Source: Nitrosomonas sp. JL21 (GTDB lineage Bacteria; Pseudomonadota; Gammaproteobacteria; Burkholderiales; Nitrosomonadaceae). Taken from it: a stretch of 64,000 bases of DNA. The translations under genes were made by a program, and so were the position numbers. Under the pieces are notes generated by a model. The model made no database searches. It had not been told where the DNA came from and saw only the letters and a list, made by a program, of their open reading frames with translations. This document shows positions 20 through 22,968 of this stretch, piece after piece (the first letter of the stretch is position 1; each line of letters starts with the position of its first letter). Location: positions 1-64,000 of the forward strand of contig NZ_QRCB01000002.1 of the NCBI RefSeq assembly GCF_009833095.1, read 5' to 3'.

Positions 20-925
20 TCAACTGCTCAGTGATCCACCGACTTCCCCGTCGACATTCACCCAAAGATGCGGTAAACCCAGCGAATCGAGCCATTCCGC
101 GCCTTGTTTTTCCTTGAGCATCCCGATCGTGGATGCGCTGCCCGCAACGACACAAAATTCACCGACCACACTCACCGCTGCCATATAATTCACCGGCCAG
201 CCGGTTCTGGGATTCAATACATGGCCATAGCGCACGCCATTAAGCGTGATGCAGCGTTCGTAATCACCGCTGCTGGCCAATGCGCCCGAATGCAGCAATA
301 ACATTTTCAATACCCCACCAGGCTGGCGCGGATGCCGCACCGCGACCCGCCACGGACTGCCATCATCATGCGGGCCAATCACCTTGATATCTCCGCCCAG
401 ATTTACGATGCCGTGATGAATACCTGCTTCCCAGCACAACGAAGCAGCCCGGTCAACGGCATATTCCTTGACCACACCGCCAAAATCAATCTCCATCCCC
501 GGCACTGGGAACGCCAACCGTGGTCGTCGCCAACTCAGTTTGTGCCAGCCAATTTTCTCAAGTACCGACTGAATCATCTCGTCACCCGGAATAATATTCG
601 ACTTGAAATCCCAGGCTCGACGCAAAATTCCCGATGTAATATCGAATAACCCATCGCTTTGTTCATAGCAGGTCGCAGCGTAATCGAGCAATCCGGCTGT
701 TTCGTCATCCACCGTGATAGTCCCGCCGCGCGCAGCCACGCGGTTTATTTTCGACAAGAAACTATCCTGCCGATAACGCGAATACCGCGCCTCCAAACGA
801 TGCACGTCGTCCATCGCCGCCTCGGCTACCCGTCTGCCCATTCTGGAATTTCTGGCGTACAGTTGGATACTGCAGGGCGAACCCATCGCCTTGAAGTCAT
901 AGTGGTAGTAATTAAGGTGAGCCAT
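20..925 (-). CDS. apbE: ApbE-family FAD:protein FMN transferase
   Basis: ApbE enzymes move FMN from FAD onto a Ser/Thr of exported redox proteins. Family blocks are clear: AMGSPCSIQLY near the N-terminus, DFGGVVKEYAVD (the DxGGxxKGYAxD block), VNLGGDI, SGDYER and HVLNPRTGWP. Two oddities. First, there is no signal peptide: the ATG at 925 is preceded in frame by only 11 codons before a stop, none of them a start, so the protein as encoded seems cytoplasmic, whereas most ApbE proteins are exported lipoproteins. Second, the C-terminal metal-binding stretch, usually A-D-x-x-(S/A)-T, reads A-G-S-A-S-T (residues 261-266), so the usual Mg-binding Asp appears to be Gly. It is the last gene of a minus-strand row with DUF3570, DUF4266 and a TlpA-like protein, after a 178-bp gap. 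The family assignment is secure; activity is less certain. Confidence 0.9.
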   Translation of the reverse strand: MAHLNYYHYDFKAMGSPCSIQLYARNSRMGRRVAEAAMDDVHRLEARYSRYRQDSFLSKINRVAARGGTITVDDETAGLLDYAATCYEQSDGLFDITSGILRRAWDFKSNIIPGDEMIQSVLEKIGWHKLSWRRPRLAFPVPGMEIDFGGVVKEYAVDRAASLCWEAGIHHGIVNLGGDIKVIGPHDDGSPWRVAVRHPRQPGGVLKMLLLHSGALASSGDYERCITLNGVRYGHVLNPRTGWPVNYMAAVSVVGEFCVVAGSASTIGMLKEKQGAEWLDSLGLPHLWVNVDGEVGGSLSS

Positions 926-1103: not shown

Positions 1104-3827
1104 TCAAAAATGGTAACTCCAAGTCGCTGCCAAAGATCCCTGGCGGTTCAACTGGAATCCGTTGAAATCGTTGCTGATCGGTTGCAACCATTCTATGCCG
1201 AAGCGGTTGCCGGCGAATCGGCCGGCTGGGATTCTGGCATTGACGCCGAATCCCATGTCCCAGAATTGCCCACCGTAATTCGATGGAAAATCCATCGGGC
1301 CCATGCGCGCGTTGAATTGGTCAAAATCCCGATGAATCCTATCCTGCCAGGTATATGCGCCGCGCACGGTGGCGGTCAGCCAATGCGTCAGATCGAATCC
1401 GCCCCAGGTCGTCGCCTGTACCATATCACCTAGGCGATAACCCGATTTGTTCTTTTCCTCCAGGCGCTTGATGCCACTCAACTGCGCGCCCCATGACCAA
1501 CGGCTTCTCTCTCCGACGTACGTCAGGCTCGGCATGAAATCCCAGGTGCCGCTCCCTAATTGCATGCCAAAATGAATCAATCCACCTTCCTCGGTATGCG
1601 TGCGGCGCATTTCAATATCGGTTTTACCAGTGGGCGCACTCAGGCCAAGATTGACGTGGATACGGTGTCCTGAGATGTCGAGCAATTTAACCAGAGAGGA
1701 GAAATATGTGTCGCTCAACGCGCCAGTTTCGTGCACCAAACCAGCATGGCTACTATGTGCGGCTGACCGCAGCGGATCTTTCACACCGGATAATTCTCGC
1801 AAATTCATATCCATATCCATGAATGTCGGCATCAACATCACATTCAGCCAACGCGTCGGCGCGTACATCAGATCGATCATGTGCATGCGCATGTCCATAT
1901 TGGCAGGCGTAAATTGACAATCCTGACCACTGCATCCTTGGTCGATGATGCGCTGATCAGCTGCTTTGTGAGTACCATGCATCATGTTTCCGCCAGTCCA
2001 GTTATACATGAACCGGTAGCCCGCCATAAAATCCCCGGCTTTATCGAGCATATGGCCAAACATGATTCCGGCAGGCGGTATCGTGTGATGGTGATGCGAT
2101 GCAGCATGGTTATGAGACATCGCGGAACTGTCCTGGCCACCCATCGGTGAAGAAGTGACGGGTTCGATATCGAATTTGACTGCCGCATTCGCGACATAAT
2201 AATCGAAATCGGTAAAGCTACTACTGCCGCCCCCGCCAATTTGCATCGAACCGGCACGCGTGTAATATTCAAAACCGGCTTCGAGTGCAACGCCTTTTGC
2301 CAATAATTTGCTCAGCACCACGCCGCCGCTCAATGCCCCGAATCCTGCCAGGCGATGGTCGCTGGAAAAATTTTTCGGCAATTGATAAGGAACGTATTTA
2401 GGCTGCAAGGTTTGGGCCACTGCATCATCAATCGCATTGCCATTCTGATCGACATAGCCAAACACGCCACTTCGAAAATATAAGGCGTCAGGATTGGTAG
2501 GATTGAAATAAATCTCTCGTCCCAAGCTATCAATCTGGGGTTTTTGATAAGTTTGTTGAGTGAACAAATAAGGCCGATAAAAACTGGCTGAATCCTGCGA
2601 GTAGTAACGGATCCGCGGCGTCAACGTCCAGCCGCTGCCAAGCGGTTGCACCCAACTGGCATCAAATGTATGCGTATTGACGCCCCAATCGTCGACCGAT
2701 AGGCGGTAACCCAGATGCATAGCTGCATTGAACGGACTGATGTAATGCACATATTTCGCATTGAGCGCAACCTGGTTACGAGTACCCGGCCGCTGTTCGA
2801 TGAACGCGCGCACTCTCCCGGTAACCGGTGTCGATAGACCATTGTTCAACTCGGCCGGGTCGACGAAAATGAACGACATCGCTTTGTACGGATTTTCCAG
2901 AAAGCCGCTGCTGTGTGTATAGCCGATACTGGCATCGATGTATGCATTCTTGGTCAATACCTGCGTCAGTCCAACATTGGCAACCCAATCCTGCCGATCA
3001 TCCCGTAAAATCTCTGAACTGCCACGGCGTACGATGTTCTGTATATACGCATCCTTATTGATATACGGTGATGAATCATGATCGAGGATGGCACCAATTT
3101 CACTGAAGGTATAGCCGCCATTGAATTTGACCGTAGTCAACTTCTGATTGAAATCGAGGCGGCCGCCGATATTGCCGAAACTGGATTTGTAGTCGCGCTC
3201 GCGCGAAAAACCACCCGCGACATTGATAGCGGCTTCGTTCCACTCGTGGCTCAAACCAAATGTGGCCTGACGACGCGTTTCCGGTGAAGCCGACACCATG
3301 ACCAATACCGAGCGAGGATCGACATCGCCGGTCAATTGCTTAGTGAACAGATCCCGTCCAATGGGGGTCAAATCGCGATTCAACAGCACATCGCTCTGGA
3401 GTATCGGAGAAGCACCTGCAACCACCCCGCCCTTACCAAAATATGCACGATTCCCGCCGGTAGTGGCCAATGGCGTTGAGGTGATCGGCGTCGCACCTGA
3501 CCAGGTATCCTGCGTATAGCTGAACGAAAACGTGGTGCGGTCGGTCAATGAGAATAACCCGCTGCCGTGCAGAACATCCGCAGTGATGGGCTTCAAACTG
3601 TGCGGCGCACCATAGAGATTGCGCTCGCCTTCCTGATAGCGGCTGTACTGGAAATTGATGCGCTCTTTCGCGCTGGCATGTCCCGGTGACAATAACAATC
3701 CGGGTAATACCAACGCCGCGCTGGTCAAGGCATGAAGCGCATGTTGGGAATGTACCGCTGATCCTGATGAATGATCAGACAACTTCCGGCAGCCACGGTA
3801 ACACTGCGGCTTTTTATTTCGATGCAA
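1104..3827 (-). CDS. DUF3570 protein fused to a second beta-barrel-like domain
   Basis: A 907-residue predicted outer-membrane protein. The start is TTG with an AAGG upstream; an export-like hydrophobic stretch (about residues 33-52) ends in HASA. Residues about 55-565 resemble DUF3570, with alternating aromatic/polar strands. Residues about 586-907 look like a second barrel-type domain of the kind grouped with phenol-degradation/transporter barrels, ending in the aromatic WSYHF typical of outer-membrane strands. A His-rich linker (HNH plus HHHH at residues 578-581) joins the two, followed by a Met-rich patch (MDMRMHM at 644-650). The sequence DTWSGAT at residues 107-113 matches the ApbE flavinylation consensus DxxSGAT, and apbE is the next gene downstream. 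Copper binding and flavinylation are inferences. About twice the usual DUF3570 length. Confidence 0.75.
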   Translation of the reverse strand: MHRNKKPQCYRGCRKLSDHSSGSAVHSQHALHALTSAALVLPGLLLSPGHASAKERINFQYSRYQEGERNLYGAPHSLKPITADVLHGSGLFSLTDRTTFSFSYTQDTWSGATPITSTPLATTGGNRAYFGKGGVVAGASPILQSDVLLNRDLTPIGRDLFTKQLTGDVDPRSVLVMVSASPETRRQATFGLSHEWNEAAINVAGGFSRERDYKSSFGNIGGRLDFNQKLTTVKFNGGYTFSEIGAILDHDSSPYINKDAYIQNIVRRGSSEILRDDRQDWVANVGLTQVLTKNAYIDASIGYTHSSGFLENPYKAMSFIFVDPAELNNGLSTPVTGRVRAFIEQRPGTRNQVALNAKYVHYISPFNAAMHLGYRLSVDDWGVNTHTFDASWVQPLGSGWTLTPRIRYYSQDSASFYRPYLFTQQTYQKPQIDSLGREIYFNPTNPDALYFRSGVFGYVDQNGNAIDDAVAQTLQPKYVPYQLPKNFSSDHRLAGFGALSGGVVLSKLLAKGVALEAGFEYYTRAGSMQIGGGGSSSFTDFDYYVANAAVKFDIEPVTSSPMGGQDSSAMSHNHAASHHHHTIPPAGIMFGHMLDKAGDFMAGYRFMYNWTGGNMMHGTHKAADQRIIDQGCSGQDCQFTPANMDMRMHMIDLMYAPTRWLNVMLMPTFMDMDMNLRELSGVKDPLRSAAHSSHAGLVHETGALSDTYFSSLVKLLDISGHRIHVNLGLSAPTGKTDIEMRRTHTEEGGLIHFGMQLGSGTWDFMPSLTYVGERSRWSWGAQLSGIKRLEEKNKSGYRLGDMVQATTWGGFDLTHWLTATVRGAYTWQDRIHRDFDQFNARMGPMDFPSNYGGQFWDMGFGVNARIPAGRFAGNRFGIEWLQPISNDFNGFQLNRQGSLAATWSYHF

Positions 3828-3897: not shown

Positions 3898-4149
3898 TCA
3901 ATAACAACCGCAGCCCCCGCCCCCCGATGTGGATTTATGGCTGGGAGCCGCTTCACGACTGCTGTAATTATGCGATTGGATTTCACTTTGCAGTGGATAC
4001 GGCTCCAATTCCATCTGCGGTTGGGCGAGGTTACCGCGCTCCCAGGGAGCTACATTCGCGCATCCTGTAAAGACGATACTCAATATCAACGCTTGCAGGA
4101 TAACAGGTAATATCTTCAGCTTAGAAAGAGAAGAGCAATTCTTAACCAT
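3898..4149 (-). CDS. small DUF4266-type lipoprotein
   Basis: An 83-residue protein with a hydrophobic signal (residues about 11-27) and a lipobox ending VFTGC, so a lipoprotein is expected. The C-terminus ends in a Gly run followed by CGCY; a GGGGCGC tail is the hallmark I associate with DUF4266 proteins encoded next to DUF3570. The start ATG has a weak GAGA ribosome site. It lies 34 bp downstream of the TlpA-like gene and 70 bp upstream of the DUF3570 gene, on the same strand. Function unknown; the terminal Cys pair could be a redox or metal site, which is inference. A small lipoprotein partner of the outer-membrane protein is the most reasonable reading. Confidence 0.7.
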   Translation of the reverse strand: MVKNCSSLSKLKILPVILQALILSIVFTGCANVAPWERGNLAQPQMELEPYPLQSEIQSHNYSSREAAPSHKSTSGGGGCGCY

Positions 4150-4183: not shown

Positions 4184-4687
4184 CTATTCCGTCAATAACT
4201 GCGTGATCAATGCCCGTAATTGCTGTGATTCATCCGAGCGAAATCCCTGATGAATATGCCGTACATTGCCTTTCTTGTCGATCAGATATGACGTCGGCAT
4301 CGCCATTAATTCGAATACTTTGGCGCATTGCTTATTGCCATCGGCTACAATCGAAAAATCAACAGGATTATTCGCAATAAATGCCTGAGCATCAGCAATT
4401 TTTTCATCCAAATTGATACCAACCACATGCAACCCTTTATCCTTCAATTCATGTTCGAGCTGATTCAGGAACGGAAAGGATTTAACGCACGGCGGACACC
4501 AGGATGCCCAGAAATCCATATACACCACTTTTCCCTTCAATTCCTGCAGAGCAAAGGTTGATTTGCCATCCAATGTAGTCAATTGGCACGACTCTGAGGC
4601 CTGATCTAAATGCTCTGCATGAGATGTAAATCCGCCTAAGAGCAGTAATGGTATACACGAAAGAAAAACAATTAACTTATCCATCAT
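4184..4687 (-). CDS. TlpA/ResA-like periplasmic thioredoxin
   Basis: A 167-residue exported thioredoxin-fold protein. An N-terminal signal (residues about 1-24, ending SHA) is followed by the AhpC/TSA-redoxin fold with the active site WCPPC (residues 63-67) in FWASWCPPCVKSFP, and the cis-Pro loop MPTSYLID. This is the TlpA/ResA type, which usually reduces periplasmic disulfides, for example during heme or copper-site maturation. It is the first gene of the row leading to DUF4266, DUF3570 and apbE, and lies 56 bp downstream of a small secreted Cys-containing protein. Likely clients are the Cys-containing neighbours (inference). Confidence 0.9.
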   Translation of the reverse strand: MMDKLIVFLSCIPLLLLGGFTSHAEHLDQASESCQLTTLDGKSTFALQELKGKVVYMDFWASWCPPCVKSFPFLNQLEHELKDKGLHVVGINLDEKIADAQAFIANNPVDFSIVADGNKQCAKVFELMAMPTSYLIDKKGNVRHIHQGFRSDESQQLRALITQLLTE

Positions 4688-4743: not shown

Positions 4744-5214
4744 TTATTGATAGTACAATACATTCGGTGCACTTGTTTCAGTGTGCACATCATTCGCAAT
4801 CGCTTTGCAATGGTAAGTAAAATTAAAGGTGCGCATCCCAGCGGCGGTTTTGTTGACTAACACTAGATAGTTTCCATTACCGCCATACACTCGAGCCTCA
4901 GGGCCAGGTTCTCCATCACCAGAGACTGGATCAGTAGCATTAGCAGCAAGGCGATCTTTAATTACTTGTACACTAAGAAATAAATTATCCTGTGGTGGCG
5001 AAAGATCTTCGACCTGTGCAACAAAATAATCCGTGGCAATATCCGTTCCCACAAGATTACTGCAATTAACAACTGCATATCCGATGAAACCGGCATTATC
5101 ACTATTCACATCCATCGGAATATTAGGTTCTTCATGAGCACTTGATAAAGTCATATACCCTAACAAAGCTATTCCAAAACCAGTAGCCAATAGCGTATTC
5201 ATTATTTTTTTCAT
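4744..5214 (-). CDS. small secreted protein with predicted N-terminal His, paralogue of the 8366-8833 gene
   Basis: A 156-residue exported protein I cannot assign to a named family. The signal peptide is predicted to end TLSSA (residues 22-26), leaving His27 as the first mature residue. The mature part has one Cys early (VVNCSNL) and one late in YHCKAIANDVHTETS. This C-terminal pattern, HCKx-N-VHTxTS, and the overall layout recur in the protein at 8366-8833 (VHCKTATNVHTGTS), so the two are diverged paralogues of about 155 residues. The two Cys probably form a disulfide. N-terminal His plus two further conserved His suggests metal binding, most simply copper; that is inference. A terminator (5352-5400) separates it from the upstream YcnI-like gene. 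Confidence 0.75.
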   Translation of the reverse strand: MKKIMNTLLATGFGIALLGYMTLSSAHEEPNIPMDVNSDNAGFIGYAVVNCSNLVGTDIATDYFVAQVEDLSPPQDNLFLSVQVIKDRLAANATDPVSGDGEPGPEARVYGGNGNYLVLVNKTAAGMRTFNFTYHCKAIANDVHTETSAPNVLYYQ

Positions 5215-5351
5215 GATTCTAATTCCTTAATTGTCAATTAATAGTTACTGTTTTTATTGTTAGATTTTTTGTACATTTATTTCAATTTCTCAAACCAAGA
5301 TTCAACATGAGCCTCCCACAACTGCCATTATTCATTTAACACATTTGGCTC

Positions 5352-5400
5352 GTTTCTAAAAAAACCTCGCTCCGATAAGGAAGGAGGGAGAGCGAGGTTT
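5352..5400 (-). terminator. rho-independent terminator of the 5443-6171 gene
   Basis: AAACCTCGCTC at 5362-5372 pairs perfectly with GAGCGAGGTTT at 5390-5400 (11 bp, 17-nt loop). Read on the minus strand the stem is followed by a run of T. It lies 43 bp beyond the stop of the YcnI-like gene and insulates it from the next small secreted gene. Confidence 0.85.
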
Positions 5401-5442
5401 CGTAACAAAATTGTATTATCTACAAAACCTATTCTTACATTC

Positions 5443-6171
5443 TTATTGAGGCCAAACTTGATTGCCTTCAAACTTGATAGGCATATCTCGATTGAGCTGT
5501 GCAGCCGATGGTTTGACCTCAACAGCGGTTCCAGTTCCTCCGCAACTTTCCGGTAATGCGCTGGTACGGGTAATGGTCAATGAAGCAGCGCCATCTTCTG
5601 TGCTGTCATAGGGAGTGCCCAATCCGGCCAATGTCCACTTATTGACGGTTTCATCGTTAAATCCGGAAATCGCGGTGATCTCACAAACATCCACGATCGA
5701 TACATGAAACTTGACACTTGCGGCGCATGAATCAGTTTTAATTGTAATGGCTCCTACTCGGAAGGGAATATATCCATTCAAATGATGCGGCAAAGAATTT
5801 CCACCGCCTGCCCAAAAACCGACGACATTACCGTTCGCATCAGTCTTCTCATCTTCAAAATTGAAGATAGCCCGGCTATAGTTTTTTTGAATTGAATTTC
5901 CCCAGTCGGCAAAATCAGTCAGAGCGCCAGTATGAGGTTGTCCGTCAACGGTAATCGTAGAATCCACACCATCGGGAAACACAACGCTGGTGCCGATCAC
6001 ATTGTGCTCTCCACACCCATGGCCAATGATGATATTGTTGGAGCTTCTCGCACCTTCCGGAACGCTTGGAAGCTCGAGCGTCGTATGCGCCAACACGCTT
6101 ACTCCCCCTATTGCTGCAGCCATACTGACCATTGAAACCGCCAAAAATTTTAATCCTTGTTTTTTACACAT
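5443..6171 (-). CDS. YcnI/DUF1775-like secreted protein 1 (predicted N-terminal His)
   Basis: A 242-residue exported protein. The signal peptide ends SVLA (residue 28), so the mature chain begins His29-Thr-Thr-Leu-Glu. The NNIIIGHGCGE segment and the VFPDG segment resemble the DUF1775/YcnI pattern (GC..s.T..v.iP.G). YcnI proteins bind Cu(II) through the mature N-terminal His; extending this here is inference. Four Cys (53, 149, 163, 210), Trp120 in VGFW and Trp240 in the C-terminal WPQ are shared with the paralogues at 6668 and 9609, as is PSAAQLNRDMPI. ATG with a strong AAGGGGG ribosome site. It is divergent from the 6668 gene, with two 17-bp palindromes between them. Confidence 0.8.
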   Translation of the reverse strand: MCKKQGLKFLAVSMVSMAAAIGGVSVLAHTTLELPSVPEGARSSNNIIIGHGCGEHNVIGTSVVFPDGVDSTITVDGQPHTGALTDFADWGNSIQKNYSRAIFNFEDEKTDANGNVVGFWAGGGNSLPHHLNGYIPFRVGAITIKTDSCAASVKFHVSIVDVCEITAISGFNDETVNKWTLAGLGTPYDSTEDGAASLTITRTSALPESCGGTGTAVEVKPSAAQLNRDMPIKFEGNQVWPQ

Positions 6172-6356
6172 TTTTTGCCCCCTTCTTCTAAATAATTTTT
6201 ACTTCCAAATAACCGCTAATCAATAAAACTTAAAATAAGTTAATTACATTGTTTTTTTAATAATTTAATCTCTCCAGTGCATGGAATGTATTCTTCTTCT
6301 ACTCTATATTCTCTACTCTGTAACTTGATTATCTGTTGCCATTTTTGAAATATCAA

Positions 6357-6373
6357 TGCGACAAATTGTCGCA
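6357..6373. promoter_or_regulatory. palindromic operator-like site A
   Basis: TGCGACAAATTGTCGCA is a perfect 8+1+8 inverted repeat in a divergent intergenic region. Sister sites lie at 6523-6539, 10559-10575 and 10688-10704. Probably bound by a dimeric regulator that I cannot name. Confidence 0.7.
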
Positions 6374-6522
6374 CCCCTATACGCATAATCCGCCACTCAA
6401 ACCTTATTAGAAAAATATCGTGTTTTTCGCTTGATTTCTTCTTACTTATCCAACGCTTGTTATTTTTTCTAAAACTTTCTAAATGAGATATTCATCGACA
6501 ATATATTCTAATCATTGCCAAC

Positions 6523-6539
6523 TGCGGCATTTTGCCGCA
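6523..6539. promoter_or_regulatory. palindromic operator-like site B
   Basis: TGCGGCATTTTGCCGCA is a perfect 7+3+7 inverted repeat with the same 17-bp frame as site A, 129 bp upstream of the YcnI-like gene at 6668. Confidence 0.7.
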
Positions 6540-6667
6540 TTGCCATTCACGGAACTATTGATGACAATACCCGTGCGCTCAATTGAAGTTTTATCAGCCT
6601 TTCTCACTTCTTTCTTTTCTGCATACAGTTTTTTATATCACAATAATATTCAATCGGAGAATGTGTA

Positions 6668-7426
6668 ATGCTCATACGTAAATTACTACTAACATCAAGC
6701 ATGATAATAATTTTGGCTGCAATTCAACATGCACAGGCTCACACAGTTTTGGAAGTCCCACAAATAACCGAGCAAAAAAGAAGCAGCAATAATATTGTGA
6801 TCGGCCACGGTTGTGGTGAGTCGCCAGTGATCGGCACCAGCGTCGTTATACCTGATGGCATTGATTCGACTATCACCACGGGCACCACTCAGGCAGGTGG
6901 TACCGATCCATATACTGGCACTCTCTCTAACTTCATAAATTGGGGTAACGCTATTCAATTGTTGCAAAATCGTTCGGTATTCAGTGAGCAAAATGAAAAA
7001 ACCGATAGCCTTGGTAATGTCGTAGGATTTTGGTCGGGCGGCGGAAAGGGTGTAGCCGCTAATCTCAATGCATATATCCCTTTCACCATTAGCGCCCTTT
7101 TTGTGGAACCTAGTTCATGCGCTAAAAGCGTACGGTTCGACGTGGCCATCGTTGATGTATGCAAAATAACCCCAATCACCGATATTAATGATGACACAGC
7201 AGTAAGTTTATGGACACCCGCTGTCGGTTCCAAATATGATGGTGTAGAGGGTGGTCATGCCTTCAATTCTCCAGCTTTTTTGACTATAAATCGGGATTTG
7301 ACAGTCAATCCCCTACCAGAAACCTGTGGTGAAGGATTACATGTATACGTAAGACCTTCTGCTGCTCAGATTGATCGCGATATGCCCATTATTTTCGATG
7401 GCACGCAGATTTGGCCACAACCTTAA
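6668..7426 (+). CDS. YcnI/DUF1775-like secreted protein 2 (predicted N-terminal His)
   Basis: A 252-residue exported paralogue of the proteins at 5443-6171 and 9609-10361. The signal ends AQA (residue 24), giving a mature start His25-Thr-Val-Leu-Glu. The shared blocks are all present: RSSNNIVIGHGCGE, VIPDG, DSLGNVVGFWSGGG, SCAKSVRF, VDVCKI, PETCGEG and PSAAQIDRDMPI, ending in WPQP. Four conserved Cys probably form two disulfides. ATG at 6668 with a GGAGA about 6 bp upstream. It is divergent from copy 1; site B lies 129 bp upstream. A periplasmic or secreted copper-binding role is inferred from the family and the predicted N-terminal His. The copies have diverged enough to suggest distinct roles rather than recent duplication. 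Confidence 0.8.
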   Translation: MLIRKLLLTSSMIIILAAIQHAQAHTVLEVPQITEQKRSSNNIVIGHGCGESPVIGTSVVIPDGIDSTITTGTTQAGGTDPYTGTLSNFINWGNAIQLLQNRSVFSEQNEKTDSLGNVVGFWSGGGKGVAANLNAYIPFTISALFVEPSSCAKSVRFDVAIVDVCKITPITDINDDTAVSLWTPAVGSKYDGVEGGHAFNSPAFLTINRDLTVNPLPETCGEGLHVYVRPSAAQIDRDMPIIFDGTQIWPQP

Positions 7427-7462
7427 GAAACCCTCAAGTGACGATTGCACACGGTCAAGCCC

Positions 7463-7534
7463 GGTGAAACCAAATATAGAGGCTCATTTACAGTCAACCA
7501 GTAACCGTCTTTTGCCTAATATATTTGGTTCGCC
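7463..7534. repeat. imperfect long-range inverted repeat
   Basis: ACCAAATATA at 7469-7478 and TATATTTGGT at 7520-7529 are exact complements; pairing extends outward to about 15 bp with one bulge. It lies in the 176-bp gap between the YcnI-like gene and the PEP-CTERM gene. It lacks a T-run and is not an obvious terminator; it may fold as an mRNA 3' or 5' structure. Confidence 0.4.
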
Positions 7535-7602
7535 TAGCTTGATCGCTGCTCACTTTCTTTTCAAAGGCTCCCTACCTTTCATTTCTTAAATATGGAGGAA
7601 GA

Positions 7603-8265
7603 ATGATAACCAATCGATTCATATCCTATGCATGTGTGTTCTCATTGAGCAGTGTCACTGGTAGCGCTTTTGCCACGATGACGTATCTCGATGAAGCATC
7701 GTTTACTTCCGCCCTGGGCGGCGCCACCACTACTCTTGAAAGTTTTGAAGAACCCCCTGTCGACAATTCATCACCACTTGTATTTCCTACGGTTGAAGTG
7801 TCTTGCGACGGTTCAGAATGGTGCTCCGGTTTTTTTGGTACCTCGACCGTAATGCCGACGGATGGTTCGTTCGGGGTGTATTTTTCAACTCCCGACAGCA
7901 TTACGTTCACTTTTTCATCGCCGATCACGGCATTCGCAATCGATGTGGGCGATCTGGGCACGCGCGGCGCAACGGATTTCAGCGCCACCCTATCCAACGG
8001 TAACTCGGCAACGCTATTCACTGGCTTTACCGGCACACCAGATAATCAGGCGTTTGTGGGTTTGATTGATACCACGGAGTTCACTTCCATCACTTTTCAA
8101 GGTTCGGCGCCCAATGATGGCATTTATTTTGACAGCATGCAGACCGCACTGGTGACGGCGGTTCCCGAACCCCATACCTATGCGCTGCTATTAGCTGGTT
8201 TGGGATTATTGGGAATGACGCATTTTCAAAAACGCCAGACAGGCACGGCAGCAATCCAGCAATAA
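7603..8265 (+). CDS. PEP-CTERM sorting-domain exoprotein
   Basis: A 220-residue exported protein. A signal peptide (residues about 1-24, ending AFA) precedes a Ser/Thr/Gly-rich beta-type body with TFSSPITAFAIDVGDLG, common in PEP-CTERM proteins. The tail VPEPHTYALLLAGLGLLG, then basic FQKRQ, is the three-part PEP-CTERM signal: Pro-Glu-Pro motif, hydrophobic helix and basic cluster. That signal is processed by exosortase EpsH/XrtA and usually marks proteins associated with exopolysaccharide or biofilm; no exosortase lies in the window. Strong GGAGGAAG ribosome site right before ATG. Followed by a bidirectional terminator. Confidence 0.9.
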   Translation: MITNRFISYACVFSLSSVTGSAFATMTYLDEASFTSALGGATTTLESFEEPPVDNSSPLVFPTVEVSCDGSEWCSGFFGTSTVMPTDGSFGVYFSTPDSITFTFSSPITAFAIDVGDLGTRGATDFSATLSNGNSATLFTGFTGTPDNQAFVGLIDTTEFTSITFQGSAPNDGIYFDSMQTALVTAVPEPHTYALLLAGLGLLGMTHFQKRQTGTAAIQQ

Positions 8266-8286
8266 AGCTTTCTATCTTTGTCAATG

Positions 8287-8321
8287 AAAAAATCCCAATG
8301 AGCAATGCTCATTGGGATTTT
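8287..8321. terminator. bidirectional rho-independent terminator
   Basis: A perfect 15-bp stem (8289-8303 with 8307-8321) with a 3-nt loop, between the convergent PEP-CTERM gene and the small secreted gene at 8366. T-runs flank both sides, so it can serve both strands. Confidence 0.9.
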
Positions 8322-8365
8322 GCTTTAAACGCGATGATAATAATGCTACTGCAAGAGCACAATTA

Positions 8366-8833
8366 CTATTGTTGCTGCTTGGAAGAAACGCTCGTTCCTG
8401 TATGAACATTAGTTGCGGTTTTGCAATGCACCTGAACATCATAGCTATCGGTTCCCGCAGTACTATGAGACACGAATAAATTATAAACACCCGAACCTTG
8501 CGTTACTCTTATCAGCGGACTGTACGCCGCGTCGGTGTCGGTAGTATCGGTGCTGGCTTGCGCGCATTTGTTGGCTGTGCATGGCGTGGTGCCTTTTTGC
8601 AAAACGATGCCGACTTTAGAGGAATTTGCTGTCATATCCTTGACTTGTGCTTCGGCATAGGAAGGTGCGCCGGCGCCATCATCGAAACAGGAAACTTGAT
8701 AAAAATCAATGCCAGCAGCCAAGCCTGTGGTAAAGCTACCTGCTTGGTTATGAGCCAGCACTGCGCCTGCCTGACTGATCATTAATCCACCCAATACTGT
8801 AGCCACTGTATTTTTCAATCCTGAAAATTTCAT
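8366..8833 (-). CDS. small secreted protein with predicted N-terminal His, paralogue of the 4744-5214 gene
   Basis: A 155-residue exported protein. The signal ends AVLA (residue 27), so the mature N-terminus is His28-Asn-Gln. Visible features: VSCFDDGAG, AEAQVKD, a central Cys pair in TTPCTANKC, and the C-terminal VHCKTATNVHTGTS motif shared with the 4744-5214 protein. The central Cys pair is absent from that paralogue. No known family recognised. The conserved pair of outer Cys, the mature N-terminal His and the HC/VHT histidines are compatible with a small periplasmic metal-binding beta-sandwich; this is inference. It lies downstream of the HEAT-repeat gene on the same strand. Confidence 0.75.
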   Translation of the reverse strand: MKFSGLKNTVATVLGGLMISQAGAVLAHNQAGSFTTGLAAGIDFYQVSCFDDGAGAPSYAEAQVKDMTANSSKVGIVLQKGTTPCTANKCAQASTDTTDTDAAYSPLIRVTQGSGVYNLFVSHSTAGTDSYDVQVHCKTATNVHTGTSVSSKQQQ

Positions 8834-8942
8834 ATTTATGCTCCTTAATTATTAGGTTGTGATACCTATTCTGAACAACAATGGATTCTCAACAAAAATC
8901 GATGATTTTATGGAGAATTATCAGTTCGATCGAGTTATGTCA

Positions 8943-9500
8943 CTACTTCGACGACGTTTCGAGTTTCATGGCGGCCAATTCTCTGACGGCCTCTTCTTCG
9001 TCGCTCAACGCTTGTTCAAGCAGGCTGGCACCTTTTTCATCCGCACTGAGGCTATCCACTGCCATCAAACGCACTGAAAGCTCGCTGTCCTGCAGAGCCT
9101 GTTCAAGTATCAAAGGCACATCAGCGCAATTCTGCTGAGCAAGCGCATATACCGCCTGTGCTCTGACATTCGAATCCGGATCGCGAAGCGCCGCTTGCAG
9201 GATTTTTTGTACGATATTAGCGTCCACTGATCCTTTACCGGCGAGTTGAGACAGCGCGCTAACCCGATCCAGGGGATTATTCGAGGAAGCCAAATTCATG
9301 AGTTTGGCTGATAATTCCCGGTTCGACTCTTGACTCTCATTGGCGTTACAGCTAATTTGCAATGATTCCAGACTGTTGAATACTGCCCGGCTATCTGCAT
9401 TGCTGGCATCATTCGCCAAGACATTACCGGCGGCAACCGCAAGCGAAGACATCATGACCAGGATCGGTATACCCATTTCCGGTTTTTTTACTATTCGCAT
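8943..9500 (-). CDS. secreted HEAT-repeat protein
   Basis: A 185-residue exported protein. A signal peptide ends NVLA (about residue 29); from residue about 65 there are tandem helical HEAT-like repeats: NPLDRVSALSQLAG, DPDSNVRAQAVYALAQ, DSELSVRLMAVDSLS and DEEEAVRELAAMKL, each with the D-x-x-V-R-x-x-A pattern. Two Cys (ISCN and QNCAD) could form a disulfide. HEAT repeats are protein-binding scaffolds, so this may be a periplasmic adaptor for the neighbouring secreted proteins (inference). ATG at 9500 with an AAGGAGTAATT site. Same strand as the flanking small secreted and YcnI-like genes, but separated from the latter by a terminator. Confidence 0.8.
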   Translation of the reverse strand: MRIVKKPEMGIPILVMMSSLAVAAGNVLANDASNADSRAVFNSLESLQISCNANESQESNRELSAKLMNLASSNNPLDRVSALSQLAGKGSVDANIVQKILQAALRDPDSNVRAQAVYALAQQNCADVPLILEQALQDSELSVRLMAVDSLSADEKGASLLEQALSDEEEAVRELAAMKLETSSK

Positions 9501-9515
9501 AATTACTCCTTAGTG

Positions 9516-9570
9516 ATAAAAAAGAGAATTGAAGATGAAGTGAGAGCTCCCGTTCTCACTTCATCTTCAA
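9516..9570 (-). terminator. rho-independent terminator of the 9609-10361 gene
   Basis: TTGAAGATGAAGTGAGA at 9529-9545 pairs perfectly with 9554-9570 (17 bp, 8-nt loop); read on the minus strand it is followed by a T-rich run at 9516-9523. It lies 39 bp beyond the YcnI-like stop codon. Confidence 0.85.
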
Positions 9571-9608
9571 TTTAGAAACTGCCTAAACTCTTAAGCGAAC
9601 AGCTTAGC

Positions 9609-10361
9609 TTAATGTTTTGGCCAGTACTGTTTGCCTTTAGAGCTTTTGATTGGCATGTCGCGATTGAGCTGCGCAGCCGAAGGAATGATTTCAACATCTA
9701 CGCCATCACCGCATGCTGCATCCAGAGGATTATTCGTGGCATCACGAGTTACAGTATAGGTGGCTGGTGAATTGTATCCGCCCAATCCGACACCGTCGTA
9801 ATTTGAACCTACAGCAGGAGTCCATGTTTCAAGTACTCCATCAACGAATCCTGATATGGGTGTCACTTTACAAATATCTGCAATGCCAAGAACAACTTTG
9901 ACACTGCGTGCGCAGGAGGTTGGTTCGATGAACATGGCGCTTGCACGGAATGGCAGATATACCGTATAGCCTTCTGGCATTTTTCCGTCTTTCACCCAAA
10001 AACCAACGACGTTGCCGTTAGCATCTTTTTTCTCGTCTTCTGATTCGTAGACGCTATGATCCAGAATTTTTTGGAATAAATTTCCATAGTTAGATACATA
10101 AGTGTCAATTGTGTCATTTGATGGGGCGCCATTGACTTTAATGATGGAATCCGCACCATCCGGGAAAACGACTGTGCTGGCGATGGTATTTTTGCCTTCT
10201 CCGCAGCTATGGCCGATAACGACGTTATTGGTGACTCTAACCCCTTCCACAACCGTTGGTATATCCAAGCGAGTATGCGAAAATGCGCTTTGTGAGACGC
10301 CCACCAGTAATGCAACAGCGACTGCTGCCTGGGTTGAAAGCTTGAATTTTTTATTAATCAT
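9609..10361 (-). CDS. YcnI/DUF1775-like secreted protein 3 (predicted N-terminal His)
   Basis: A 250-residue exported paralogue of the proteins at 5443 and 6668. The signal ends SAFS (residue 28); the mature chain starts His29-Thr-Arg-Leu-Asp. Shared blocks: VTNNVVIGHSCGEG, VVFPDG, DANGNVVGFWVKDG, TSCARSVKV, IADICKV, AACGDG and PSAAQLNRDMPI, with C-terminal YWPKH. The four Cys are conserved. The HGC of the other two copies is HSC here. The leader carries a perfect 14-bp hairpin (10417-10450), and palindromes C and D lie further upstream in the divergent region shared with the amidohydrolase. Copper binding through the N-terminal His is inferred from YcnI. Confidence 0.8.
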   Translation of the reverse strand: MINKKFKLSTQAAVAVALLVGVSQSAFSHTRLDIPTVVEGVRVTNNVVIGHSCGEGKNTIASTVVFPDGADSIIKVNGAPSNDTIDTYVSNYGNLFQKILDHSVYESEDEKKDANGNVVGFWVKDGKMPEGYTVYLPFRASAMFIEPTSCARSVKVVLGIADICKVTPISGFVDGVLETWTPAVGSNYDGVGLGGYNSPATYTVTRDATNNPLDAACGDGVDVEIIPSAAQLNRDMPIKSSKGKQYWPKH

Positions 10362-10558: not shown

Positions 10559-10575
10559 TGCGGCAAAATGTCGCA
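10559..10575. promoter_or_regulatory. palindromic operator-like site C
   Basis: TGCGGCAAAATGTCGCA, a 7+3+7 inverted repeat with one mismatch, 198 bp upstream of the 9609-10361 gene. Same 17-bp frame as sites A, B and D. Confidence 0.65.
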
Positions 10576-10687: not shown

Positions 10688-10704
10688 TGCGACAATTTGC
10701 CGCA
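10688..10704. promoter_or_regulatory. palindromic operator-like site D
   Basis: TGCGACAATTTGCCGCA, a 7+3+7 inverted repeat with one mismatch, 182 bp upstream of the amidohydrolase start. It forms a pair with site C as A does with B. Confidence 0.65.
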
Positions 10705-10885: not shown

Positions 10886-12193
10886 ATGATTACTCAAAAA
10901 AATTTTTTATTCCATGCCAAATCACTGTTAACTTTTTCTGCTTTCACATTGCTGTGCGGATTCAACCATGCCAACTCAGCACCGGACAACGCTGCCAGTC
11001 GTTCACGAAATCAGAACTGTTACGTCCTTGTGGCTGATCGTGTATTCGATGGTTTCAATTTGCTTGAATATTCAGCAGTATTGATCAGGAGCAATAAAGT
11101 TATTCAGACCGGCGATGCAATCCAGTTGAGCAAGCAATGCAGCCGCACCGTCGATCTCGGCGATGCCACGATATTGCCCGGATTCATCGAATCGCACGCT
11201 CATCTGACGTTCCAGAATATACCTGCGGAAATCGTATTGAAGCACGGTATTACCACCGCACGGGATACAGGCGGCCCTCTGCTCAAACCCTCAGGCGGCG
11301 CCGGCACCTTACGCCTGATCAACGCTGGCCCGATCATTCAAGCGAGTGGGGGCTATCCACTGAATATTTTCGGTCATGGCGATCATGCAACCACCGATCA
11401 ATATGGTGATATCGGTATTGTCGTGTCGACCGCCGAAGAAGCGCAAAAAGTCGTCAAAGATCTCGTGGATGGAGGTTCAGCGCTGATCAAGCTTTCGCTG
11501 GAACTCGGAGGAGAAACCGGGGCTCCATGGATGTCCAGTCATGGCCACGGCACACCCCCTGCCACACCTTGGCCGCTGCTGTCACTTGACATCGTCAAAG
11601 CAATCGTTGCCAAAGCACATTCGTTGAACCGCAGAGTCGCTGTCCATGTGGGTGAAAATACCGGGGTCGAGCTTGCACTCGATGGCGGTGTCGACGAATG
11701 GGCGCATATACCTTGCGCGGAAATTCGCGATGAATTGCTGCACCGCGCCGTCGCTCAGCATGTGACCTTCGTAACGACCATTGATACGTTATCGGCTTGC
11801 ACTGGCATCCATGCTAACGTGCATAAGCTTTCTCACCTCATTGCGCATAATCCCGATACGCGTTCCAAATTCATCTACGGTTCTGAAATTGGCCATGACA
11901 ATGTGCCATGGGGCATCAATGGAGAAGAAATGAGCATGATGCTGCATTTAACCAGCGGAGAAGCTATCGAATTCGCCGATGTGCTGAACGTATTCAAAGC
12001 AGCCACCTCAGAGGCCGGAAAAAATTTAGGAAAACCATTGTTGGGAACCCTCTCGCCGGGCGCACCTGCGGACATCATTGCCGTGCGTGGCAATCCATTT
12101 CTGAGATTCAAATTACTGGAATATCCGGATCTGGTCATTTCCGGCGGCCACTTCATAGTCAACAACTTCAAGAAAACCAAAGCTAATCCTTAA
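10886..12193 (+). CDS. secreted amidohydrolase-superfamily protein
   Basis: A 435-residue metal-dependent hydrolase of the imidazolonepropionase-like/Xaa-Pro dipeptidase-like group. A signal-like N-terminus (residues about 12-32, ending ANSA) suggests a periplasmic protein. The metal motif HxH lies in PGFIESHAHL; further candidate ligands are Lys in ALIKLSLE, His in RVAVHVGE and His in EWAHIP. The usual GTD/GSD Asp block reads GSEIGHDN, so the catalytic Asp position is altered or shifted. The C-terminus shows the typical APADIIAVRGNP strand. The substrate cannot be read from the sequence; peptides or amides are likely for this group. Ribosome site weak. It ends 9 bp before the SpeE-like gene and is probably co-transcribed with it. 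Confidence 0.85.
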   Translation: MITQKNFLFHAKSLLTFSAFTLLCGFNHANSAPDNAASRSRNQNCYVLVADRVFDGFNLLEYSAVLIRSNKVIQTGDAIQLSKQCSRTVDLGDATILPGFIESHAHLTFQNIPAEIVLKHGITTARDTGGPLLKPSGGAGTLRLINAGPIIQASGGYPLNIFGHGDHATTDQYGDIGIVVSTAEEAQKVVKDLVDGGSALIKLSLELGGETGAPWMSSHGHGTPPATPWPLLSLDIVKAIVAKAHSLNRRVAVHVGENTGVELALDGGVDEWAHIPCAEIRDELLHRAVAQHVTFVTTIDTLSACTGIHANVHKLSHLIAHNPDTRSKFIYGSEIGHDNVPWGINGEEMSMMLHLTSGEAIEFADVLNVFKAATSEAGKNLGKPLLGTLSPGAPADIIAVRGNPFLRFKLLEYPDLVISGGHFIVNNFKKTKANP

Positions 12194-12202
12194 AGGCACA
12201 CC

Positions 12203-13747
12203 ATGAATCGATCTCCTTCAAAACTCCTTGAAAAAATCTGGCTGCATTGCACGGTATTTCTGACCGGCGCGGCGGTAATGGTCATCGAACTGCTCGGAAC
12301 CCGCCTGATCGCGCCTTTTTATGGCGCCAGTCTGTATGTATGGACTTCCCTCATAGCAGTCACGCTGATTGCATTGGCGATCGGTTATTATGCCGGCGGA
12401 ATCTTGGCAGACCGGGCCCGATCGGGACTCTCCGTGATTATTGCAGCCGCTGGCTTCTTGACGCTCATCATTCCCTGGCTGACAGGCCCAATTCTATTGG
12501 CAACCGATCCATTAGGATTGCGCCTGGGAAGCTTTATCAGCACGCTGATTTTATTTTCACCCAGCTTGATCCTGTTGGGCATGGTAGGTCCATTTGCAGT
12601 CAAGCTTTCGACTTCGGCACTGGCCAATGTAGGCACAAACACAGGCTCCATTTATGCGGTCAGCACCGTTGGCAGCGTGATCGGAACCTTATTCCTAGGG
12701 TTTTATTTGTTTCCACTGATTGGCTCCCGCGAAATTTTCATCGGCTTGGGCATCGCATTGCTGATACTGGCGATACTCATCACGGTGATCGAGCGAAAAT
12801 ATCAAAAATCCACATTGTCTCTGATTCCCACCACGCTATTGGTCGTGATCGGTATCGGGTTATTTCCGCAAATCGCCAATTCTGGCAAGCCCGAATCCAG
12901 CGAAACGTTCAAGACTTTATTCGAACGCGAAAGCTTGTATGGCTGGGTTCGAGTGATCGACAAACCCAAAGAGAACATTCGCTTATTGACTGTCGATGCA
13001 TCGACGATAGGGGCAGCCAGCATCAGTCACGGCGAAAACCTCCTCACGTATCAAAAAATCGTCGGACACCTTCCGGCATTAGCGCCAGCGATGAAAAATG
13101 CCTTATTGATCGGCCAAGGCGCGGGCCATATGGCGATGACGCTGAAAGAATATGGCATCGCCACTGATACGTTGGAAATAGATCCGGCGGTAGCTGAGGC
13201 AGCAACCCGTTTCTTTGGATTCAAGCCAAGTGGCCGCGTCATCATTGGCGATGCCCGCTACGAAATCCGTAAACTCAAAGGCCCCTATGATTTGATCATA
13301 TTGGATGTATTCACCGGCGGCTCGGAGCCGACACATTTACTCACGGTTGAAACGCTCGCTCAATTGCGGTCTCTGTTGAACGATCAGGGTATGTTGGCAC
13401 TGAATTTTGTTTCTTTCTTCGAGAACGGTCAAAATGCCGCGCTTGCATCGGTATCAAAAACGATTGCTGAAGTTTTTCCCTATCAGCAAGTATTTATTTC
13501 TGACCTTGGTGCAGATTTCAACGATTTTATTTTTCTCGCGACCAATCACGACATCAATCTTGCCCAAAACGAATTGCCAAAGAAACATCATGATTGGTTA
13601 AAGCAGCGGATGTTATCGGTCGATCAATCACGGGGGATCGTGCTGACCGACAATCTCAGTCAATTGGAACTGTTACAGATGCGCAAATCAGAGCATTATC
13701 GGCGAATGATCGTGGATACGTTGGGTACCCGACATTTCATCCGCTAA
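12203..13747 (+). CDS. membrane-fused spermidine synthase-like protein
   Basis: A 514-residue protein. Residues about 10-230 contain seven or eight transmembrane helices (first: VFLTGAAVMVIELLGTRLIAPFYGAS, a signature of fused MFS/spermidine synthase proteins). Residues about 260-500 carry a SAM-dependent aminopropyltransferase-like domain with ALLIGQGAGHMA (motif I, GxGxG variant), DTLEIDP (acidic end of beta-2), IGDAR and LIILDVF. Such fusions are widespread but their product is unproven. Good AAGG site 6 bp before ATG; follows the amidohydrolase by 9 bp. Convergent with recN. Confidence 0.85.
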   Translation: MNRSPSKLLEKIWLHCTVFLTGAAVMVIELLGTRLIAPFYGASLYVWTSLIAVTLIALAIGYYAGGILADRARSGLSVIIAAAGFLTLIIPWLTGPILLATDPLGLRLGSFISTLILFSPSLILLGMVGPFAVKLSTSALANVGTNTGSIYAVSTVGSVIGTLFLGFYLFPLIGSREIFIGLGIALLILAILITVIERKYQKSTLSLIPTTLLVVIGIGLFPQIANSGKPESSETFKTLFERESLYGWVRVIDKPKENIRLLTVDASTIGAASISHGENLLTYQKIVGHLPALAPAMKNALLIGQGAGHMAMTLKEYGIATDTLEIDPAVAEAATRFFGFKPSGRVIIGDARYEIRKLKGPYDLIILDVFTGGSEPTHLLTVETLAQLRSLLNDQGMLALNFVSFFENGQNAALASVSKTIAEVFPYQQVFISDLGADFNDFIFLATNHDINLAQNELPKKHHDWLKQRMLSVDQSRGIVLTDNLSQLELLQMRKSEHYRRMIVDTLGTRHFIR

Positions 13748-22787: not shown

Positions 22788-22860
22788 TACTCCTCCCTCT
22801 CTGTGTATAAAATCAGCAAAGCGAGGAGTGCGAGAGAACCAATGGGAAATCAATGGACTT
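22788..22860 (-). promoter_or_regulatory. putative riboswitch expression platform with SD-sequestering hairpin
   Basis: In the minus-strand mRNA the Shine-Dalgarno GAGGAGT (22795 to 22789) is exactly complementary to ACTCCTC (22829 to 22823), so a hairpin can hide the ribosome site. Just upstream, the segment 22850-22837 is complementary over 13 positions, with one bulge, to aptamer segment 22913-22901. This offers two exclusive folds. Translational control is inferred from complementarity only. Confidence 0.55.
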
Positions 22861-22864
22861 GATC

Positions 22865-22968
22865 ATCTGTTGGTACGATGCAACCCGGCCACCCTTCCAA
22901 ATTTCCATTGGTTAGGGCCCTCGGCTTTGCGTCCGGGAGTCTCCTCCCGTTTGCCTTTTAATCAAATT
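22865..22968 (-). ncRNA. cyclic di-GMP-I (GEMM) riboswitch aptamer
   Basis: Reading the minus strand: AAAAGGCAAAC, then a GGGAG-GAGA-CTCCC hairpin with a GNRA tetraloop, then GGACGCAAAGCC, then GGCCCTAACC (tetraloop-receptor-like) and a second hairpin closing with GGCCGGGTTGC. These are the conserved blocks of the GEMM c-di-GMP-I aptamer in the right order and spacing, as in the Vibrio Vc2 element. It ends about 80 bp before the RTX exoprotein start codon. Boundaries are approximate, since the outer P1 pairing is not clear by eye. Confidence 0.88.

Follow-up and report, generated by a model that had tools for sequence, protein, structure and literature searches.

The window examined here is a stretch of 64,000 nucleotides from Nitrosomonas sp. 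JL21 (contig NZ_QRCB01000002.1, positions 1 to 64,000 of the forward strand), part of a 3.17 Mb assembly of 87 contigs that is 99.99% complete. Its beginning is occupied by a gene cluster in which two families of secreted proteins, here designated Y and S and for the most part predicted to start with a histidine once the signal peptide is removed, accompany a flavin module composed of ApbE, DUF3570, DUF4266 and thioredoxin proteins. We discuss the sequences, folds, regulation and distribution of these components and the possibility that they form a metal-acquisition system. An initial annotation had described a cluster of five open reading frames (ORFs) for secreted proteins predicted to start with histidine between positions 4744 and 10361. 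The five ORFs lie where it had placed them, while the cluster is larger and reaches base 20, the genes for ApbE (20-925) and DUF4266 (3898-4149) and a set of palindromes having been overlooked. The labels TlpA-like, HEAT-repeat and His/Met-rich outer-membrane protein given to three further genes were borne out by Pfam matches and residue composition.

Organization of the locus

The features are listed below in window coordinates, with predicted signal peptide cleavage marked by a slash.

20..925, minus strand: ApbE, FAD:protein FMN transferase (PF02424, E 8.4e-73); last gene of unit 1, position kept in relatives
1104..3827, minus strand: DUF3570 outer-membrane protein of 907 residues, TTG start uncertain (PF12094, E 8.3e-107)
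3898..4149, minus strand: DUF4266 small lipoprotein-like protein with C-terminus CGCY (PF14086, E 4.6e-19)
4184..4687, minus strand: TlpA/ResA-like thioredoxin with CPPC (PF08534, E 1.1e-25; ResA model 7.8e-31, under its cut-off)
4744..5214, minus strand: S1, small secreted S-family protein, SSA/HEEP (ORF and alignment)
5353..5409, no strand: inverted repeat in the Y1-S1 gap, imperfect (80% complementary), with a T-run after it on the minus strand (by eye)
5443..6171, minus strand: Y1, YcnI-fold family protein, VLA/HTTL (ORF and alignment)
6357..6373, no strand: palindrome TGCGACAAATTGTCGCA, between Y1 and Y2
6523..6539, no strand: palindrome TGCGGCATTTTGCCGCA, between Y1 and Y2
6668..7426, plus strand: Y2, YcnI-fold family protein, AQA/HTVL (ORF and alignment)
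7603..8265, plus strand: PEP-CTERM protein (PF07589, E 3.2e-7), recurrent partner of Y2-type genes
8366..8833, minus strand: S2, small beta-sandwich protein, VLA/HNQA (model pLDDT 89.2)
8943..9500, minus strand: HEAT-repeat protein with signal peptide (PF13646, E 4.8e-17); sits between Y and S in relatives
9527..9572, minus strand: terminator-like hairpin with a perfect 19-bp stem and T-run, between Y3 and the HEAT gene
9609..10361, minus strand: Y3, YcnI-fold protein, AFS/HTRL (AlphaFold2 pLDDT 95.6; first Foldseek match YcnI)
10559..10575, no strand: palindrome TGCGGCAAAATGTCGCA, upstream of Y3
10688..10704, no strand: palindrome TGCGACAATTTGCCGCA, upstream of Y3
10886..12193, plus strand: secreted amidohydrolase, divergent from Y3 (PF01979, E 1.3e-9), recurrent neighbour
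12203..13747, plus strand: membrane protein with spermine-synthase-like domain (PF01564, E 3.4e-5)

The genes fall into three units. Unit 1, on the minus strand from 6171 down to 20, reads Y1-S1-TlpA-DUF4266-DUF3570-ApbE; unit 2 consists of Y2 and the PEP-CTERM gene; unit 3 reads Y3-HEAT-S2 and diverges from the genes for the amidohydrolase and the spermine-synthase-like membrane protein. The same genome carries a second set on contig C25 (locus L039, 3186-9920) in the order Y-HEAT-S-S-TlpA-DUF4266-DUF3570, and no ApbE was found near it within the 12 kb inspected. On contig C45, another Y gene comes after genes for RND and CDF cation efflux.

Predicted N-terminal histidine of the secreted proteins

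Cleavage sites were predicted by applying the -3/-1 rule and by considering conservation. On this basis, the signal peptides of the five proteins end in Ala or Ser right before a His (SSA/H, VLA/H, AQA/H, AFS/H and VLA/H), in agreement with the initial annotation and as confirmed by the ORFs and the alignments; the HEAT, TlpA, DUF3570 and PEP-CTERM proteins, judged by eye with the same rule, have no such start. In family Y, His is found at +1 in 73/73 full-length ORFs from the window and the genomes of the genus, 7 fragments of 80 having been dropped. A second set, built from the window and named loci up to L181 after prior exclusion of ORFs that were shorter than 120 residues, contained X or were identical, comprises 112 aligned sequences, of which 2 have no residue at this position and the other 110 all have His. 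In these 110, residue -1 is always A or S and residue -3 is always A, V, T, L or I. Family S is less uniform: the matching genus set, from which one fragment was dropped, counts 46 His and 7 Asp among 53 proteins, and an S protein with Asp at +1 also occurs within the window's own genome (L039:4666).

The regularity of these starts had been considered too great to be due to chance. This holds for Y, in which His at +1 is strict, and only mostly for S, where Asp replaces it in 12/80. His at +1 was reported for 2.6% of the secreted proteins in the SignalP 6.0 training set (PMC12537917); since the five proteins represent only two families, the fair chance figure is about 0.026 squared, or 7e-4, by simple multiplication. 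Conservation within Y is stronger evidence than this figure.

Other secreted proteins with a similar start were encountered. Four further palindrome-linked cases (L231:2646-4214, L232, L248 and L250) seemingly start with His and correspond to an amidohydrolase-like protein (AFS/HEGVDH) and to a family with A/HEGxPNM. Locus L054 (9474-10373, minus strand), and likewise L176 and L180, encodes a 300-residue secreted protein with a predicted His at +1 (HMFTNFPTYDRGG), a remote Y relative that adjoins a Y gene and is without Pfam or PDB match.

Family Y, a remote fold relative of YcnI

The window proteins starting at 5443, 6668 and 9609 belong to one family, Y, with six copies in the genome. No family accounting for Y was found in Pfam, searched with the window proteins and the 58 members of set A1, or in NCBIfam, searched with the window proteins; sequence searches of the PDB with Y and S returned nothing meaningful, and a plasmid collection searched with Y3 gave no match. 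The NCBIfam esterase model PRK10673 matched Y3 with E 0.0033 and was dismissed, its 16.7 bits standing against a cut-off of 399. Structure was more informative. AlphaFold2 modelled mature Y3 with a mean pLDDT of 95.6 and a pTM of 0.92, and the first five Foldseek matches are all YcnI entries (7mek, 7me6, 8um6) with E 6.0e-5 to 9.5e-5, probability 1.00 and TM-scores by target of 0.72-0.75; cohesin domains appear from rank 7 of the list. A comparison of the Y profile with that of 14 DUF1775 proteins gave E 5.4e-4 with a probability of only 30%, control pairs giving E 0.21 and 0.16, and placed H1, H23, C25 and W152 in register. These DUF1775 sequences came from a phylum draw (16/200 genomes, 17 loci, 14 proteins aligned) because the family is scarce in the class draw (1/114). 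YcnI ranking first by fold and the absence of a Pfam match together make Y a remote fold relative of YcnI rather than a DUF1775 member by profile. The earlier label "YcnI-like" is thus apt at the level of the fold, as given by the model and Foldseek, and fails at that of the DUF1775 profile and of the YcnI glutamate ligand, which Y does not have.

Seven residues are identical in 126 aligned Y proteins: H1, H23, C25, C122, C136, W152 and C189. The 126 sequences combine 108 of set A3 (window and named loci, without the divergent rows L180 and L176) and 18 of 22 Y-labelled ORFs from later, more distant loci, from which two Y-S fusions and two L261 fragments were omitted. In Bacillus subtilis YcnI, Cu(II) is bound by the N-terminal His27 and by Glu50, and Trp137 is nearby (PMC8424229). 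Glu50 corresponds to mature position 24, occupied in the 108 Y proteins by 70 G, 30 S, 3 A and 3 T (2 not listed) and in the 18 others by 14 G, 2 T, 1 D and 1 A; the residue preceding it in Y is the invariant His23. The Glu ligand is also reported missing in many proteobacterial DUF1775 members (PMC8424229), and H23-G24-C25 is invariant in 14/14 of the DUF1775 proteins aligned here. Trp152 would be the counterpart of Trp137, as suggested by its invariance in the 126 sequences and its alignment with the DUF1775 Trp.

Taken against YcnI and DUF1775 as a whole (PF07987; PDB 7ME6, 7MEK), Y shares the fold by model, the N-terminal His after the signal peptide, the Trp aligned by profile and the His23-x-Cys25 spacing of the proteobacterial members aligned. 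It differs by the lack of a PF07987 match and of a Glu at position 24 among the residues listed, by its length of about 220 residues, four of them invariant Cys (the YcnI crystal chains have 127-129 residues), and by its setting: no PCuAC domain was found in Y, which sits with DUF3570 and ApbE.

Family S and its fusions with Y

S1 and S2 are paralogues with 32% identity (E 4.5e-6), and nothing convincing was retrieved for S by sequence in Pfam, NCBIfam or the PDB. The S2 model (pLDDT 89.2) resembles beta-sandwiches of the C2 and collagenase PPC types, matching a calpain domain (2qfe, E 8.5e-5) and 1u5i (E 3.2e-4), followed by PPC domains with E of at least 0.002. The Asp variants and these C2/PPC-like matches weaken the view of S as a second copper protein. 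Of the family f193 loci fetched, two, L262 and L265 (L184 being the same gene as L265), encode a secreted fusion of S with Y, in which the S part comes first and carries the N-terminal His, the Y part starting about 150 residues in. A free-standing Y with His adjoins each fusion. The existence of such fusions supports Y and S acting together.

The flavin module and its gene order

A cluster of ApbE, DUF3570, DUF4266 and thioredoxin genes has been described, with a function termed uncertain and iron hinted at; in the same report, a Chlorobium DUF3570 protein was flavinylated by ApbE and DUF4266 was noted to end in a CxC motif (PMC8238504). The DUF3570 protein of the window has a single SGAT flavinylation-type motif near residue 110, and a motif of this type is found in 56/58 DUF3570 homologues. 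Its residues 546-700 are rich in Met (11.6%) and His (8.4%), the corresponding Met/His shares being 9.0/7.7 in L162 and 7.1/5.8 in L165. CxC occurs within the last six residues in 58/61 DUF4266 matches. The clusters of PMC8238504 and ours are alike in the presence of all four components together, the SGAT motif and the C-terminal CxC. They differ in that two secreted families, Y and S, precede the module here, that DUF3570 has 907 residues with an added Met/His-rich part instead of about 420, that the thioredoxin matches PF08534, the published PF13899 not being among its matches, and that flavinylation motifs are mostly one instead of two.

The same cluster, which the initial annotation proposed to seek in other ammonia oxidisers, was found by gene order in other Nitrosomonas and in methanotroph metagenome-assembled genomes (MAGs). 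A single scan, of which 80 out of 95 confirmed matches were kept, yielded 78 loci: 65 have Y-S, 52 have Y-S-TlpA-DUF4266-DUF3570 and 40 have ApbE in addition, some loci being cut by contig ends. The PEP-CTERM gene is the next marked gene after Y in 6/78. Since the bait was one conserved peptide, close relatives are favoured in this count, and records very near the window's own genome may be missing. All six genes are present in each of the methanotroph MAG loci L162 (Methylococcaceae) and L165 (Methyloprofundus). In the methanotroph-like family f193, the chain was found in 10 of the 17 regions fetched, some with HEAT, with two exceptions in detail: L270 is without ApbE, and in L255 a gene on the opposite strand separates Y from S. 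When these 17 regions are pooled with those of G220, G258 and G387, the 20 comprise 10 with the chain, 2 with a fusion and the module nearby, 6 with Y alone, a rearranged set with palindromes (L266, from G258) and one with none of these (L267, from G387). A spermine-synthase-like gene follows ApbE in L255, L257 and L264 and lies beside DUF3570 in L270. CopC, CopD and PCuAC were not among the families at the genes scanned, no search directed at them having been made.

A palindrome upstream of the Y genes

The window contains four exact copies of the palindrome TGCGRCAWWWTGYCGCA, two in the interval separating Y1 from Y2 and two upstream of Y3. Shuffled sequences average 3.2 matches at up to 3 mismatches, so that what stands out is how exact these sites are and where they lie, and not how many there are. 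The whole genome contains 10 exact sites and 20 with at most one mismatch, the reversed control giving 0; the palindrome is present in 59/61 genomes of the genus, with 0 control matches in all of them. Exact copies lie within 600 bases upstream of 83/129 Y genes and 20/95 S genes, again with 0 for the reversed control; the 129 upstream stretches are distinct strings, some of which may be near duplicates counted separately because one genome bears two names. The distance to the chosen start codon is 93-392 bases, with six exceptions. No exact palindrome was found at the f193 loci carrying the operon genes. The amidohydrolase gene 10886..12193 is possibly under the same palindromes as Y3. Sigma-54 promoters were considered in view of the spacing between palindrome and start codon, and rejected: they show no enrichment (1/129), and a second test placed 2/129 over the shuffle threshold (1.3 expected; opposite strand, 1).

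The hairpin at 9527-9572 and the repeat at 5353-5409, located after Y3 and Y1 respectively, may cause more Y to be produced than of the proteins encoded downstream. The terminator scan as a whole gave 9 sites for 9.3 expected; 9527-9572 has by far the longest stem among them, and the 5353-5409 repeat is not one of the 9.

Elsewhere in the window, a c-di-GMP-I riboswitch (22876-22965, minus strand, 63.4 bits) lies directly upstream of ORF 19026-22853 (minus strand), whose 1275 residues resemble, by eye, an RTX-type secreted protease.

Distribution and link with copper monooxygenases

Y is present in 33/37 genomes of the genus, the window's own included, and in 0/24 genomes from 24 other genera of the order. 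Among 369 genomes of the class, Y occurs in 7, PF02461, a subunit of ammonia monooxygenase (AMO) and particulate methane monooxygenase (pMMO), in 10, and both in 4, the window's own assembly being counted as negative for PF02461. Outside the genus, PF02461 is found in 3/5 genomes with Y versus 6/362 without (Fisher P 1e-4), a test in which genomes are not independent and G220 is counted on a weak Y match (E 6.7e-4). S was detected in 5/369 class genomes, four of them with Y and the fifth, G328, by a weak match (E 6.4e-4). Where a class genome has both Y and PF02461 (four cases), they are located on separate contigs (G258) or at a distance exceeding 300 kb (G006, G220, G333).

A possible metal-acquisition system and its alternatives

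We consider it about evenly balanced whether the locus encodes an extracytoplasmic metal-acquisition system, with copper a likelier substrate than iron, in which two secreted families, mostly with a His start, are joined to a flavin and thiol electron relay. The parts come from sequence, from a structural model or from gene order, and the flow between them is inferred from gene content. Y would capture Cu(II) through its N-terminal His, His23 possibly replacing the YcnI glutamate. ApbE would attach FMN to DUF3570, electrons would pass from TlpA to the CxC of the DUF4266 protein and on to this FMN, and the metal would be reduced there. The Met/His-rich barrel would then import it so that AMO or pMMO can be supplied. 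As for S and the HEAT protein, they may serve as a scaffold, as a partner or as a second carrier. Arguments for copper are the fold shared with YcnI, the His at the N-terminus, the segment rich in Met and the link with copper monooxygenases; the cation-efflux genes ahead of a Y gene on C45 also count in favour of the metal-acquisition reading. A more specific version is possible but doubtful: at the outer membrane, a copper reductase and importer powered by flavin would supply the copper monooxygenases. In it, Y would hold Cu(II) in a variant brace (His1, His23, Trp152) intermediate between the one-His brace of YcnI and the two-His brace and pass it to the FMN-bearing DUF3570 barrel to give Cu(I), under control of the palindrome regulon in ammonia oxidisers and by other means in methanotrophs.

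Other secreted proteins, those of DUF4198, DUF6702 and the anglerases, also present an N-terminal His to a metal, anglerases being joined to a permease; the families and transporters are different ones (PMC12537917). In the main text of that report, YcnI is named just two times, and neither DUF1775 nor Nitrosomonas nor methanotrophs appear. PmoD/AmoD are likewise copper proteins common to methane and ammonia oxidisers, and differ by a CuA site with two strictly conserved Cys and by their frequent location within amo/pmo operons (PMC6189053).

A number of observations weigh against such a copper system. PF07987 has 0 matches in the window's own genome and is not among the matches of the three window Y proteins or of the 58 A1 members at E 1, and at the position of the YcnI Glu ligand Gly or Ser stands in 100/108 Y. 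The Y part of fusions L262 and L265 cannot have an N-terminal His, and among the 80 proteins of the second S set, 68 have His at +1 and 12 have Asp. The electron path is itself one we infer, and [ST]GA[ST] sites in 58 DUF3570 proteins number one in 49, two in 7 and none in 2. In terms of distribution, four of the 37 genus genomes (G001, G014, G021 and G036) are without a Y match, and three of them (G001, G021 and G036) carry PF02461 all the same, which implies that AMO does not need the system, helpful at most. Conversely, PF02461 was not found in G384 and G387, two Y-positive genomes outside the genus whose Y matches are weak or partial, in G452 and G453, the genomes of the two methanotroph MAGs behind L162 and L165, in which gaps may be responsible, or in the window's own assembly (G000). 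This last absence looks like an assembly gap because four other tested genomes of the genus have PF02461, and the genes were probably lost as repeats. In f193, which includes the PF02461-bearing G333, Y is found in 54/121 genomes, many matches being weak. The palindrome is not confined to Y either: 8/24 of the sites read away from Y precede FecI-FecR (G026, G001) or tonB-exbB-exbD, TonB-receptor and PepSY genes (G001, G036), ExbB, ExbD and the G036 copies being identified by eye. G001 and G036, genomes without Y, account for seven of the 8 sites, and the other 16/24 precede varied genes or none clearly. The uptake-type genes behind the 8 sites suggest that the palindrome marks a wider regulon with a metal-uptake flavour. 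Finally, feoB is immediately preceded by a relative of the Met/His-rich part in L273 (5789-8005), a plasmid of Methylosinus sp. C49; this relative is an outer-membrane protein with the similar part at its C-terminus and without DUF3570 match, with FecI, FecR, a TonB receptor and PepSY nearby.

The palindrome sites before uptake-type genes and the Methylosinus plasmid relative are also what favours iron, and the same machine may handle this metal: the DUF3570 flavin would reduce Fe(III) outside the inner membrane, the His-start proteins binding iron or shielding the reduced ion. Twenty-five published DUF3570 clusters with the VIT1 iron transporter (PMC8238504) point the same way. Against this, Y has the fold known from a Cu(II) protein and a conserved N-terminal His, co-occurrence in the class is with copper monooxygenases, and the genes shown by G001 and G036 are the same and may be one case. 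Moreover, Met-rich segments fit Cu(I) better than iron, and TonB and PepSY genes can also serve copper. We regard iron as rather unlikely. Copper defence or storage, in which surplus Cu(II) would be bound by Y and S, either in the periplasm or on the surface, with the Met/His-rich outer-membrane protein acting as a CopB-type sink, appears distinctly unlikely. The Y gene behind an RND pump and a CDF transporter on C45 would suit it, as would the many Y copies (six in this genome) together with hairpins after Y3 and Y1 permitting an excess of Y; but Cu(I) is the more toxic form and is what a reduction module of thioredoxin, CxC and flavin would make, and the 8/24 other palindrome sites precede genes of uptake type.

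The remaining two explanations concern the role of the histidine. Y could be a structural surface protein with a YcnI/immunoglobulin-like fold whose His is kept for folding or processing. The tolerance of S for Asp (12/80), the fused Y parts that have no N-terminal His, the pairing of Y2 with a PEP-CTERM surface protein and the cohesin domains from rank 7 of the fold list are all compatible with such an incidental His. It nevertheless falls exactly at +1 in 110/110, the signal-peptide boundary shifting along with it, so that folding is hard to invoke, and YcnI binds Cu(II) at that His (PMC8424229); we judge this explanation very unlikely. At the other extreme, His1 and His23 could form a true two-histidine brace that draws electrons from the flavin module to activate oxygen or peroxide. 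Both residues are invariant in the 126 aligned proteins, histidine-brace proteins include oxygenases (PMC10952591) and the operon would supply an electron path. The same His is, however, invariant in the 14 proteobacterial DUF1775 proteins aligned, a family proposed as copper carriers (PMC8424229), and the context suggests no substrate; we consider an oxidoreductase or oxygenase highly improbable.

Significance

The half of the system made up by the flavin module was already known; what appears new is its pairing with two secreted families that mostly have a His start, its occurrence in both oxidiser groups and the palindrome. The Y/S pairing, the dual occurrence and the palindrome were not found in the open-access literature searched, the letters of the palindrome not being part of that search; in the same literature, DUF3570 was not found together with copper and a single paper mentions DUF4266. 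Ammonia and methane oxidation both rely on copper enzymes, and copper supply and reduction in these organisms are only partly known. An operon common to the two groups, including two families without a Pfam or NCBIfam name among the members scanned, offers a concrete and testable set of genes. If the copper reductase and importer reading is true, it would be the first function for the DUF3570-DUF4266-ApbE module and would give a purpose to this widespread flavin system.

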